Positions 11,057 through 15,312 of a stretch of 64,000 nucleotides of DNA are shown here, in pieces. Origin of the DNA: Candidatus Aquicultor sp. Lineage in GTDB: Bacteria > Actinomycetota > Aquicultoria > Aquicultorales > Aquicultoraceae. Numbering within the stretch: position 1 is the first letter of the stretch; every line of letters starts with the position of its first letter. Position numbers and translations under genes: made by a program. The notes below the pieces were generated by a model that was given only the letters and a program-made list of their open reading frames with translations, searched no databases and was not told where the DNA came from. The stretch covers positions 1 to 64,000 of the forward strand of contig DASXVE010000017.1 of the NCBI GenBank assembly GCA_036504445.1. The letters are read 5' to 3'.

Positions 11057-12010
11057 TTACTCCGCGGTTTTCGTTTCTGCAGGCGAACTTTTTGCCAATA
11101 GTTCCTCCCAAGCCGTATCCACTTCCGCGTGCAATTCATCAAGCAGCGGCCGCTGTTCTTCAGCGAGCAGGTGGCGGAAGCGCCCCTGCAGCTCCAGGTA
11201 TTCGGTAAGCGGCTTTTTCTCCTTAGGCTTTACCGTCACCCGGTAGACACCGTTTTCTACCTCGTAGAGCGGCCAGTAACAGGTTTCAACGGCAAGTTTT
11301 GCTACCTTCATGCTCACATAAGGCTCGATGCGCCAGCCCGGAACGCACGGCTGCAGTATATTTAAAAAGGACGGCCCCTCGGTCGCAAGCGCTTTTTGCA
11401 CCTTGTTCATCAAATCACGCCAGTGGCCCGGCGCGGCCTGCGCCACATACGGGATGCGGTGGGCAGCCACGATGTCGGTAAGCGGCTTTTTCCGTATCGC
11501 CTTGCCTTTACCGATCTTGCCGAGCGGGGTGGTCGTAGTCCAGGAGCCGTAGGCGCTTGCACTCGAGCGCTGCATCCCGGTATTCATGTACGCTTCGTTA
11601 TCGTAGCAAATATAGGTGAAGTTATGCCCGCGCTCGAGCGCCCCCGAGAGCGCTTGCAAGCCGATATCGTAGGTACCGCCGTCACCGCCGATGGCAATAA
11701 AACGAATGTCCTCGGTTACCGAGCCTTCTTCTTTAAGTGCCTCGTAGACGGTTTCCACACCGGAGATCGTCGCCGCACTGTTTTCAAAGGCGCTGTGAAT
11801 CCAGGGGACCTTCCAACTGGTGTAGGGGTAGATAGTAGACCCGACTTCCAGGCAACCGGTTGCATTCGAGATGACCACCGGGTTTTCGACCGCCATGAGC
11901 ACTTGGCGAACTATAGTTGCGATGCCGCAACCCGCGCAGAGCCGGTGCCCGCTCGTAAAAAGCTCGGGCTTATTCGTGAATTTCTTTAAGTTTACAGCCA
12001 CATTGACCAC
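11057..12010 (-). CDS. porB: 2-oxoacid:ferredoxin oxidoreductase, beta subunit
   Basis: 317 residues. HRLCAGCGIATIVRQV holds the CxGC pair that binds the proximal 4Fe-4S cluster; GDGGTYDIGLQALSGA followed by YDNEAYMNTGMQRS is the thiamine-diphosphate and Mg2+ site; SGTxP-like blocks complete the fold. It transfers electrons from pyruvate or a related acid to ferredoxin. Last gene of porC-porD-orf-porA-porB, 78 bases after porA. Confidence 0.92.
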   Translation of the reverse strand: MVNVAVNLKKFTNKPELFTSGHRLCAGCGIATIVRQVLMAVENPVVISNATGCLEVGSTIYPYTSWKVPWIHSAFENSAATISGVETVYEALKEEGSVTEDIRFIAIGGDGGTYDIGLQALSGALERGHNFTYICYDNEAYMNTGMQRSSASAYGSWTTTTPLGKIGKGKAIRKKPLTDIVAAHRIPYVAQAAPGHWRDLMNKVQKALATEGPSFLNILQPCVPGWRIEPYVSMKVAKLAVETCYWPLYEVENGVYRVTVKPKEKKPLTEYLELQGRFRHLLAEEQRPLLDELHAEVDTAWEELLAKSSPAETKTAE

Positions 12011-12088: not shown

Positions 12089-13270
12089 TTAATCACGTAG
12101 GCCCAGGTAATACACCGGTTCCGGTACCTTACCGTTGTCGGTGGCCTTCTTGAGTTCGCTAAAAACTTCGCGTATACCGTCGATGCCGACGTCGCGGCCG
12201 CCCAGACCATAGACGACATCGAGCAGCAGCGGTCGGGTTTCGGTCTCGTAAAAAGCCGCTTTGGCCTCAATGCCGACCGGTCCGCCCCAGCCGGAGAGGC
12301 TTTCAGCCCGGTCCATTACTGCAACCGCTTTTACCGGTGAGAGGGCTTCGCGGATCGCATCTTGCGGGAAGGGGCGGAAGGTACGGATGCGCAGCGCCCC
12401 TGCGGCTATGCCCTCGTCACGCAACCGGTCGACAGTGTACTCGATTGTGCTCGCCGTGGAGCCCAGGCTTACCAAAGCCAACTCTGCATCGTCGAGCCGG
12501 TAGTGCTCGACCGCGCTGTAGCGGCGCCCGGATAGGGAAGCGAATTCCTCTGCAACCTCATTAATGGCATCTAATGCATTAGCCATCGCCTCGACCTGCT
12601 GACGCTTGTACTCGAAGTAGAAATCGTAGAGGGCGAGCGGTCCGTAGGTGACCGGGTTGGCGATATCGAGCAGTGGGTGCCGGGGCGTAAAACGGCCGAC
12701 GAAGTCTTTTACCTGACCCTCGGGGAGCATCTCCAGATCCATGAGGCTGTGCGAGACCGAGAAGCCGTCGTAGCAGACCATAACCGGCAGGTGTACATCG
12801 CCATGCTCGGCGATGCGCACCGCCTGAATAAGGGTATCGTAGACTTCCTGGACGGTTTTACAGTACAGCTGCACCCAGCCGCTGTCGCGCGCACCCATGG
12901 CGTCGGAGTGGTCGCCATGGATGTTGATCGGGGCCGAGAGCGCCCGGTTGGCAACGCCCATCACGATAGGCAGGCGAAGCCCCGAAGCGACAAAGAGCAT
13001 CTCCCACATGTAAGCGAGACCCTGGGACGCGGTTGTGGTCATCACGCGGCCGCCGGCTGCTGCTCCGCCGATACAGGCGCTCATGGCGCTATGCTCGCTC
13101 TCGACCGGCAGGAACTTTGTTTTTACCTTACCGTCGGCGGCAAACTGGGCGAACTCCTCGACCACCTCGGTTTGCGGGGTAATCGGGTAAGCTGCAACCA
13201 TGTGCGGTTCTACCTGGCGCATGGCCTGCGCGCAGGCCCCGTTTCCGGTGTAGGCAACCCGTATGGCCAT
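12089..13270 (-). CDS. porA: 2-oxoacid:ferredoxin oxidoreductase, alpha subunit
   Basis: 393 residues. The N-terminus GNGACAQAMRQVEPHMVAAYPITPQTEVVEEF is the PorA domain I with substrate-binding ITPQTE; FLPVESEHSAMSACIGGAAAG follows, then MDRAESLSGWGGPVGIEAKA in the C-terminal domain. It shapes the active site with PorB. ATG overlaps the stop of the upstream 123-residue ORF by one base (TAATG). Pyruvate is the likeliest substrate, from subunit order and sequence type. Confidence 0.92.
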   Translation of the reverse strand: MAIRVAYTGNGACAQAMRQVEPHMVAAYPITPQTEVVEEFAQFAADGKVKTKFLPVESEHSAMSACIGGAAAGGRVMTTTASQGLAYMWEMLFVASGLRLPIVMGVANRALSAPINIHGDHSDAMGARDSGWVQLYCKTVQEVYDTLIQAVRIAEHGDVHLPVMVCYDGFSVSHSLMDLEMLPEGQVKDFVGRFTPRHPLLDIANPVTYGPLALYDFYFEYKRQQVEAMANALDAINEVAEEFASLSGRRYSAVEHYRLDDAELALVSLGSTASTIEYTVDRLRDEGIAAGALRIRTFRPFPQDAIREALSPVKAVAVMDRAESLSGWGGPVGIEAKAAFYETETRPLLLDVVYGLGGRDVGIDGIREVFSELKKATDNGKVPEPVYYLGLRD

Positions 13271-13641
13271 TATTCTTCACCTTCCTGACGCTCGCACCAC
13301 GGTGAGCTATCGGGCTTGTTGCGCGCAGGCGGCTCCCAATCCTCGTCCTGGTCGAGATCTGCCGAGGGCCAGAAAGCGGGGGTGCCCGGTTCGGGCGGCT
13401 CGTCCTCATCGCCGAGCGCCGCCTGTTTCTCTTCGCCATGGTGATGGAGCCCATGCGACTCAGGAGCTGTCTTGCCCTGGGATGGCCATTCACACTGATA
13501 CTCGGCTTCGTGTTTGAACCCTTCGCCCTCCTCAATCACGCCCTTGCGGAGCATATCGGGCTCCTGGTTTTCTTGTTTATCCGTCGGTTCACCGAATCGT
13601 TCTTCGTCGGCTTTAGACAGTGTCACAGCTAAAACCCCCAA
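13270..13641 (-). CDS. Acidic low-complexity protein embedded in the por operon
   Basis: Up to 123 residues (TTG 13641; GTG 13626 with GGGGG upstream is an equally good start). It is very acidic and hydrophilic, rich in Glu, Asp, Pro, His and Gln, with no hydrophobic core visible and no known domain. Its stop overlaps porA by one base, and it lies between porD and porA, positions normally adjacent. It could be an intrinsically disordered linker or regulator of the complex; I do not recognise a family. Confidence 0.6.
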   Translation of the reverse strand: MGVLAVTLSKADEERFGEPTDKQENQEPDMLRKGVIEEGEGFKHEAEYQCEWPSQGKTAPESHGLHHHGEEKQAALGDEDEPPEPGTPAFWPSADLDQDEDWEPPARNKPDSSPWCERQEGEE

Positions 13642-13709: not shown

Positions 13710-14063
13710 CTATAGTTCTTCGGTCATAGCGATCGCATCAACCGGGCACTGCTCGGCGCACACACCGCAGCCTTTACACCGGTCGTAGTTTATCCCGATC
13801 ACTTTTTCATCTTTTGTCAGGTATGCCGCATCCGGGCAAAACATCCAGCACAACATTCACTGTATGCATTTTTGCTCGATCCAGATTGCCTTTTCAGTAC
13901 GCCAGTCACCGGTGTGATAACGTGCGGCATTGCCGGCATCCACGATTACCGTGCCCTCGGTGATATCGCGCCACCCCGGGTTCCCTTTCATTTCCTCAAC
14001 GGGCTTCCCGTCGTAGATATGCAGATGATCGTGGGCCTTTTCATTGGAATGCTCTTCGTTCAT
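13710..14063 (-). CDS. porD: 2-oxoacid:ferredoxin oxidoreductase, delta (ferredoxin) subunit with in-frame UGA
   Basis: If UGA is read through, 117 residues form a normal PorD: N-terminal NPGWRDITEG and DWRTEKAIWIEQK, first cluster motif C66-IQ-U69-ML-C72-WMF-C76-P, second motif C96-KG-C99-GV-C102-AEQ-C106-P. The only deviation is a TGA (13857-13859) at the second cysteine position of the first 4Fe-4S site. The frame, the other seven cysteines and the C-terminus (VDAIAMTEEL, TAG 13710-13712) are intact. A weak hairpin follows: TGCC/GGCA (13835-13838, 13824-13827) with loop CGGATGC starting 22 bases after UGA, which fits the general spacing of bacterial SECIS elements. Either selenocysteine or a TGC/TGT to TGA mutation; a downstream ATG directly after TGA could also allow restart. 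Overlaps porC by four bases. Confidence 0.8.
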
Positions 14064-14623
14064 TCGCCGTGCACCTCCTCGTGCGCACGTCGCAGCGCAT
14101 CGATATTGGCCTGAAGCGCCTTAGGGCTCAATTTCGGCCCAAAGAGCGTTCGCAGCTCTTTTTCAACGGCTTCCACGCTCAGGATATCCGTGGTCTTAAT
14201 CAGCGCACCAAGCATCGGTGTATTGGTTATGGGCCGCCCCATGGTCTCATTGGCAATGGTCGTGGCGTCAACGGCAAACACTTTGCCGTAACCGAGCCCA
14301 ATCTCATCGCGTAAGTGCTCTGCAGAGTGGCGGCAGTTGACAATGACCGTACCGTCCTCGACGAGCCCTTCCGTAAACGGGATTTTACCGACGAGTGTGC
14401 GGTCGAGAACAACGACGATCTGTGGCGAGGTCACATGGGAGAAAAGCTTGATCGGGTCGTCGTCGATCCTCGTGAATGCCTGGACGGGTGCCCCGCGCCG
14501 CTCCGGACCGTACTCGGGGAATGCCTGGATGTGCTTGCCCTGGGCTAACGCCGCTGCGGCAAGCACCTTGGCGGCCGTCACAACGCCCTGGCCGCCTCTG
14601 CCATGCCAGCGTATCTCTACCAT
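14060..14623 (-). CDS. porC: 2-oxoacid:ferredoxin oxidoreductase, gamma subunit
   Basis: 187 residues. RWHGRGGQGVVTAAKVLA is the conserved start of the gamma domain, followed by FPEYGPERRGAPVQAFTRI and VLDRTL. First gene of the por operon; its stop overlaps porD by four bases. The subunit is structural and helps bind coenzyme A in the complex. Confidence 0.92.
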   Translation of the reverse strand: MVEIRWHGRGGQGVVTAAKVLAAAALAQGKHIQAFPEYGPERRGAPVQAFTRIDDDPIKLFSHVTSPQIVVVLDRTLVGKIPFTEGLVEDGTVIVNCRHSAEHLRDEIGLGYGKVFAVDATTIANETMGRPITNTPMLGALIKTTDILSVEAVEKELRTLFGPKLSPKALQANIDALRRAHEEVHGE

Positions 14624-14897
14624 TACATACTCCTCAATAGCTCAACCTGCACTGATGTTAGGCACATTGTGTTGTTTCGTAGATACCCTAATCACGGGAT
14701 TTTATTATTCGGTGTACTGAATTAGCACGTTTCGTAATTGCCGCGGAGATCTCGGAGAAGGAAAACTTCCTGCGTATTAATGTTTATCTTCAGGATTATC
14801 CTGCTATAAAACGCTTGCTGTGGATTTTTTATACTACGGCATGTTAAATTTGAAACTACTGGTCAGATATGGTAATCCGCCGGCAGGAGATAGCAGT

Positions 14898-15312
14898 ATG
14901 GAGAATTTGTGTGAACGCACGCTTGAAGCGATACCATATCCGATCGCGGTCATTAATTTAGACGGACGTATTGTCTTCGCTAACTTAGCCACTGGGCGCT
15001 TGATCGGAGTACCAAAAGATCATCTTATCGGTAAGTCACGCACTTGAAGCAATTCGTACGGTTGCTCGCGGCGAATTGTATATTTGCGATGATTATTCGG
15101 AACAAATTGCCAATACCGCACACGGGCCGTATGAATTGAATAAGAGACTCAGCAGCCGCCAAAACGAGGTTCTGGATCTCATGCTTTGGGGCTTTACAAA
15201 TACGGAAATTGCAGAGCTTTTATACGTTAGCATACCGACTGTCAAGGCGCATATTAAAGTCATACCTGATCGCCGACACCTGCCGTTAATCCAACAAACC
15301 GTTTTTAGATAA
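14898..15312 (+). pseudogene. Broken PAS/response-regulator LuxR-type gene
   Basis: ATG 14898 opens a PAS half-domain (LEAIPYPIAVINLDGRIVFANLATGRLIG) that ends in a stop at about 15045. In another frame the sequence resumes EAIRTVARGELYI, typical of the linker of NarL-type regulators, and then a LuxR helix-turn-helix: LSSRQNEVLDLMLWGFTNTEIAELLYVSIPTVKAHI (given here in two parts: LSSRQNEVLDLM and TVKAHIKVI). After HIKVI the frame is lost again. At least one internal deletion and a second indel are required, so it is a remnant. Confidence 0.65.

Follow-up and report, generated by a model that had tools for sequence, protein, structure and literature searches.

A predicted selenocysteine at a 4Fe-4S ligand position in the delta subunit of a pyruvate:ferredoxin oxidoreductase from the Candidatus Aquicultor lineage

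Introduction

The delta (dicluster ferredoxin) subunit of a pyruvate/2-oxoacid:ferredoxin oxidoreductase (POR), which forms or cleaves pyruvate, appears to be a selenoprotein in groundwater bacteria of the Candidatus Aquicultor lineage. According to this reading, to which we assign a probability of roughly 0.87 on sequence evidence, selenocysteine (Sec) at residue 69 of an otherwise ordinary PorD would supply a selenolate for the second ligand position of a 4Fe-4S cluster, beside an all-Cys POR encoded in the same genome. Most known roles of Sec are in catalysis or in the binding of Mo, W or Ni. If the reading is right, a dicluster ferredoxin with a Sec cubane ligand would be a natural test of what selenium gains in pure electron transfer and, since these genomes also encode POR paralogues with Cys throughout and close homologues with Cys are available, Sec and Cys can be compared directly. 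Annotation pipelines likely truncate the UGA-bearing porD and so miss a central metabolic subunit.

The porD gene and its in-frame UGA

The gene lies at 13710..14063 on the minus strand of the window (the whole stretch of 64,000 nucleotides that was analysed) and runs over 117 codons from ATG to TAG, with a TGA at codon 69 as its sole in-frame stop (13857..13859, minus strand). This codon, the predicted Sec and ligand position 2 of motif I, sits exactly at the second Cys of CxxCxxCxxxCP, and the seven remaining ligand cysteines are intact. Cys66 (13866..13868, minus strand), ligand 1 of motif I, is invariant in the alignment; Cys72 (13848-13850, minus strand) and Cys76 (13836-13838, minus strand) belong to the same motif, and the second motif, C96-x2-C99-x2-C102-x3-C106-P, is preserved 3' of the UGA (13746..13778, minus strand). 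The translation of this part reads IEQKC66IQ[UGA69]MLC72WMFC76PDAAYLTKDEKVIGINYDRC96KGC99GVC102AEQC106PVDAIAMTEEL. A frameshift in porD was considered and disfavoured.

PorD has Fer4 dicluster domains and belongs to the PorD_KorD family (TIGR02179), which it matches with 97.9 bits against a curated cut-off of 60.05; its two CxxCxxCxxxC motifs hold seven Cys and the UGA, and they contain all eight ligands only if the UGA stands for Sec. The closest solved sequence is 9bt4_G, a POR delta. The predicted fold has a mean pLDDT of 77, above 85 in the ferredoxin part and with a disordered N-terminus, and matches 9bt4_H (Foldseek E 2.2e-7, TM 0.77 by target length); the second structure match is the delta subunit of oxalate oxidoreductase. 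The predicted POR-delta fold is found in an operon with genes for the alpha, beta and gamma subunits.

The por operon and a second POR

Upstream on the same strand, porC for the gamma subunit (14060..14623, minus strand) scores above the cut-off of TIGR02175 with 213.6 bits, and its own stop, also a TGA, overlaps the ATG of porD. Downstream follow an acidic open reading frame of 123 amino acids, here called X123 (13270..13641, minus strand), then porA for the alpha subunit (12089..13270, minus strand; 489 bits with PorA_Arch, whose equivalog cut-off is 550 bits) and porB for the TPP-binding beta subunit (11057..12010, minus strand; 374 bits with PRK11865 PorB, under the equivalog cut-off of 405 bits). 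The order porC-porD-X123-porA-porB is complete and collinear in three relatives, G003, G004 and G010, with identities to the window of 83-89% for PorA, 88-91% for PorB and 87-93% for PorC. X123 matches nothing in NCBIfam or Pfam; it is kept with the UGA-type por cluster at 58.9-65.9% identity in these three genomes.

A second, all-Cys PorD is present in each UGA-bearing genome. That of the window genome is at G000:C30:55718-55987 (locus L163, 5704-6015), in a porCDAB cluster that lacks X123; its last motif ends in CN, the usual ending being CP. The UGA-type cluster would seem to encode an accessory Sec isoenzyme.

Divergent from the por operon, a PAS piece (14820-15047, plus strand) and a LuxR/GerE piece (15076-15312, plus strand) lie in different frames, and together they make up a broken PAS-LuxR regulator (14820-15312, plus strand).

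Conservation of the UGA in relatives

A six-frame search of related genomes recovered the same porD, 78-79% identical, in G003, G004 and G010, each copy with one stop, a TGA at the same codon. The UGA type thus occurs in four genomes of three genera of one family (the Candidatus Aquicultor lineage, Actinomycetota), G003, G004 and G010 covering the two further genera; members with public names are Candidatus Aquicultor primus (MELI01000084.1) and Actinomycetota bacterium Yes70-03 (JASEGT010000003.1). That the UGA recurs in three genera leaves very little room for a base-call error. Within the family the UGA por cluster is patchy, being present in these four genomes and absent from the sister species G006, G007, G008 and G009.

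The remaining homologues keep Cys. Among 108 PorD homologues ligand position 2 is TGC or TGT in 104 and TGA in four, and none of the 108 has UGA at ligand position 1 or 3. The nearest outgroup, the order-level relative G011 with a 51% identical PorD, has TGC at the site, and the UGA forms make up one clade of the PorD tree with support 99/97. A DNA pattern for the UGA motif (C-I-x-UGA-hydrophobic-hydrophobic-C-W), run on 397 sampled genomes of the phylum, matched only the window genome, G003, G004 and G010, and the reversed control pattern matched none of the 397. Among the best 80 of 87 relatives on genome contigs, those beyond the two named UGA members were Cys forms, in a search where one of the two peptide patterns demanded Cys at the site, so that distant UGA forms could escape it. 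Viral contigs searched for relatives yielded none. In the genomes examined the UGA is therefore limited to one family, where porD shows two hallmarks of bacterial selenoprotein genes: an in-frame UGA aligned to a conserved Cys of the homologues, and conservation of that UGA in other organisms.

Selection past the UGA

In comparisons between genera, dN is 0.06-0.09 and dS 0.7-2.1 over the 47 codons that follow the UGA, hence dN/dS of about 0.04-0.11, and dN is 0.11-0.14 and dS 1.1-4.1 over the 68 codons that precede it (NG86 throughout, several of the dS values being near saturation). The part downstream of the UGA is at least as constrained as the part upstream in all three genera, which indicates that it is translated. 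On these alignments, UGA69 of porD is not a chance nonsense mutation.

Selenocysteine machinery

The window genome holds tRNA-Sec, SelA, SelB and SelD. Its tRNA-Sec (anticodon UCA) scores 76.6 bits, above the Rfam cut-off, and ARAGORN agrees; selB, selA and selD form one cluster on a contig other than that of por, all over their curated cut-offs. The selD gene (G000:C25, locus L039 13025-14077, minus strand) itself has a UGA at the catalytic position, SG-U-AAKMGPGDL. Formate dehydrogenase alpha (FdhA) likewise carries a single in-frame TGA in each of the four genomes; it stands in the expected context, CARL-U-H, and a strong GGUCU-loop hairpin lies downstream of it. Within the family tRNA-Sec was found in nine of 11 genomes, G003 and G004 included, and was not found in G010, a genome that is 77% complete. 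As UGA is the ordinary stop of porC, the code is not generally changed.

Counted from its first in-frame ATG, selD (L039) is N-terminally truncated. A tRNA-Cys (GCA) of about 95 nt at G000:C9:6865-6955 (locus L032) also exceeds the tRNA-Sec cut-off with 50.7 bits, and is possibly a SelC-like tRNA-Cys; second matches to the tRNA-Sec model occur in G004, G009 and G011, and a weaker single match in G013. A search of the window genome with Aminotran_5 added nothing.

A hairpin at the SECIS position

The model for bacterial SECIS elements has an apical loop of 3-9 nt with a G in the first two positions, a stem of 4-16 bp, a spacing of 16-37 nt and an energy of at most -7.5 kcal/mol (PMC13188914). 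Since a subset of known selenoprotein genes fails this model (PMC13188914), it is a predictor and not a defining feature. In a constrained scan, elements that conform to it were found in the three relatives, each with a stem of eight pairs, one bulged U and GG at the start of the loop: GUAC-U-GCCC[GGAUG]GGGC-GUAC in G004 (spacing 23, -12.2 kcal/mol) and GUAU-U-GCCC[GGACG]GGGC-AUAC in G003 and G010 (spacing 23, -10.5 kcal/mol). The bulged U below a short stem and the GG loop recall the E. coli fdhF element, which was folded as a control. When codons were shuffled by synonymous resampling, the energy of the G004 element was reached in 0.4% of trials and that of G010 in 3%. Between G004 and G003/G010 one compensatory pair (UA/CG) has arisen by two synonymous changes, at codons 75 and 80, which among three distinct sequences is non-significant alone (159 of 500 shuffles).

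The window copy is a weaker version. At 13821..13842 (minus strand) GUUU-U-GCCC[GGAUG]CGGC-AUAC retains six of the eight pairs, two being broken by the changes of Tyr75 to Phe and Gly79 to Ala (codons 75 and 79). Its compact form, UGCC[CGGAUGC]GGCA at 13824-13838 (minus strand), has a stem of 4 bp and a loop that begins 22 nt past the UGA with G at its second position. Loop, stem and spacing fit the model, whereas the energy, -4.2 to -4.5 kcal/mol, does not reach the limit; the sequence prefers another minimum-energy fold, and the hairpin is unremarkable under codon shuffling (P about 0.12). The original prediction had proposed this hairpin from the window sequence, and its presence, the 22-base spacing, which it judged to fit bacterial SECIS elements, and the G in the loop hold. 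Its reserve about the weak stem was justified for the window copy, and the SECIS folding that it recommended brought out a good element in the three relatives only. In the window, either SelB tolerates a weak hairpin or decoding is inefficient; the coding sequence gives no hint that constraint has been relaxed.

In most Cys paralogues no such hairpin is present. Two genes of the Cys type, that of G011 and one paralogue, do fit the model, with the spacing at its 37-nt extreme; a fit to the model is therefore not specific by itself. Rfam SECIS_1 (RF00031) had no match in the window genome and none in any control genome either, and this result is therefore uninformative.

Alternative explanations

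Whether porD is simply broken, by a lone nonsense mutation or a sequencing error, is a natural concern in a window where the hairpin is weak and a PAS/LuxR regulator close by is divided over two frames. Such an event would hardly have left the same UGA in four separately assembled genomes of three genera, purifying selection that persists past the UGA and an otherwise intact por operon; an isolated nonsense event is refuted by the recurrence, and we regard a broken porD as scarcely tenable. The original prediction had held a new selenoprotein and a nonsense mutation about even, and the recurrence, the sel machinery and the constraint now favour the selenoprotein over the lone mutation. What it had read in the window, a porD frame open save for TGA at the second motif Cys with the other ligand cysteines and the C-terminus intact, proved correct, and the checks that it named turned out accordingly: selA, selB, selD and tRNA-Sec (selC) are all there, the codon is TGA in several independent genomes and Cys in all other homologues, and the further por lesions in relatives that would have spoken against it do not occur, the operon being intact in all four genomes.

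Translation could instead stop at UGA69 and restart at the adjacent in-frame AUG70, the two PorD fragments then co-assembling. An AUG does stand directly 3' of the UGA in all four genomes, but Met is ordinary there (Cys-Met is found in 19 of 97 Cys homologues, including CTHCMICW of the same class) and no Shine-Dalgarno-like sequence is visible just before it. A restart would also discard a cluster ligand that is otherwise always Cys and leave the SECIS of three genomes and the invariable UGA stop unexplained, which makes it very unlikely. Reading of the UGA by another tRNA, or a general reassignment, would give a non-ligand residue and a three-ligand cluster; this may be tolerable, since position 2 is replaced in some ferredoxins, as by Asp14 in Pyrococcus furiosus. 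We find it highly improbable given that UGA ends porC as an ordinary stop, that tRNA-Sec and SelB are encoded in the genome, whose SelD and FdhA genes contain UGA, and that every non-UGA homologue keeps Cys. Lastly, Sec may be inserted but serve in a redox or regulatory CxxU pair, a selenenylsulfide switch in a cluster-free or oxidised state, and not as a standing ligand. Cys66-x2-Sec69 indeed has the CxxU form common among redox-active selenoproteins (PMC13188914). Against this, the remaining ligands are all conserved, the predicted fold matches POR delta structures in which the ligand set is complete, and a synthetic 4Fe-4S peptide accepts Sec as a ligand (PMC10946529); a switch is thus unlikely.

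Proposed role of Sec69

In the preferred reading, that of a selenoprotein with Sec as cluster ligand, UGA69 would be decoded by SelB and tRNA-Sec under the direction of the hairpin some 22-23 nt downstream, and from this we infer Sec insertion at residue 69 of PorD. The product would hold two 4Fe-4S clusters in which one thiolate ligand, at position 2 of CxxCxxCxxxCP, is exchanged for a selenolate. By homology to dicluster ferredoxins, residues 66, 69, 72 and 106 presumably ligate one cluster and residues 96, 99, 102 and 76 the other, and Sec69 probably ligates the former through its selenolate. In Desulfovibrio africanus PFOR, and likewise in OOR, the ferredoxin domain holds the medial and distal clusters, which lie between the TPP-proximal cluster and the protein surface (PMC5020499). 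The Sec-bearing cluster of PorD would still assemble and pass electrons between the alpha-beta core and an external ferredoxin, and this Sec POR would coexist with the all-Cys POR of the same genome.

The D14C variant of Pyrococcus furiosus ferredoxin (2z8q) is among the structure matches of the PorD model. In the wild-type protein ligand position 2 is Asp14, at the most easily lost iron; as position 2 marks a labile iron there, the selenolate of PorD may act on a labile iron corner. In a synthetic peptide with Sec for one Cys the 4Fe-4S cluster forms and its potential barely shifts (PMC10946529), so that an effect would be expected on kinetics, stability or repair and not as a large shift in potential. 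Any benefit would lie in electron-transfer kinetics, repair or protection at the Sec-bound iron. We consider it fairly probable that in PorD, the ferredoxin subunit through which electrons leave a central-carbon enzyme, a 4Fe-4S cluster has a naturally occurring selenolate ligand, with Sec-POR paired to all-Cys POR and the choice between them perhaps set by selenium supply or by flux direction (pyruvate synthesis versus oxidation).

Comparison with known systems

With the POR/KOR delta subunits (TIGR02179; Methanosarcina acetivorans POR delta, PDB 9bt4 chains G/H) PorD shares the sequence family, the fold, the eight ligand positions and the por context; it differs in having UGA, putatively Sec, at ligand position 2, where all other homologues examined have Cys. 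With the bacterial families of Sec/Cys pairs (PMC13188914) it has in common a UGA at a conserved Cys, a SECIS (here in the relatives) and a complete sel machinery. A 2026 inventory counts 119 prokaryotic selenoprotein families and subfamilies, and neither PorD nor KOR nor another 2-oxoacid oxidoreductase is among them (PMC13188914, Table 1); nor did the literature searched, subscription sources not being covered, hold anything relevant on Sec paired with POR or PorD. We regard PorD as a probable novel selenoprotein family, one in which a selenolate likely ligates a cluster.

Because the inventory lists iron-sulfur selenoproteins, namely HdrA (CxxU), the NF005503 Fe-S domain protein (UxxC), a CopZ-like 2Fe-2S protein and HgcB (GVGU), there is some precedent for Sec at or close to an iron-sulfur cluster, the metal binding of most of them being inferred from Cys homologues only (PMC13188914). 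These too are iron-sulfur proteins with Sec, which in some may replace a cluster Cys, but the proteins differ from PorD: for the ferredoxin HgcB, for instance, the motif listed is GVGU and not a ligand of CxxCxxCxxxCP. The RnfB-like NF005503 family had no match over its cut-off in the window genome. In the synthetic Sec 4Fe-4S ferredoxin maquette Sec replaces one Cys ligand, as proposed for PorD, in a man-made peptide, and the natural example given there for Sec ligation is [NiFeSe] hydrogenase (PMC10946529). The closest parallel for the pairing of enzymes that we can draw is FmdB of Methanopyrus kandleri, where Sec and Cys isoenzymes occur in one genome (PMC4807772), as do the two PORs here; a selenium-responsive switch between Sec and Cys POR, as described for FmdB, would be our guess by analogy.
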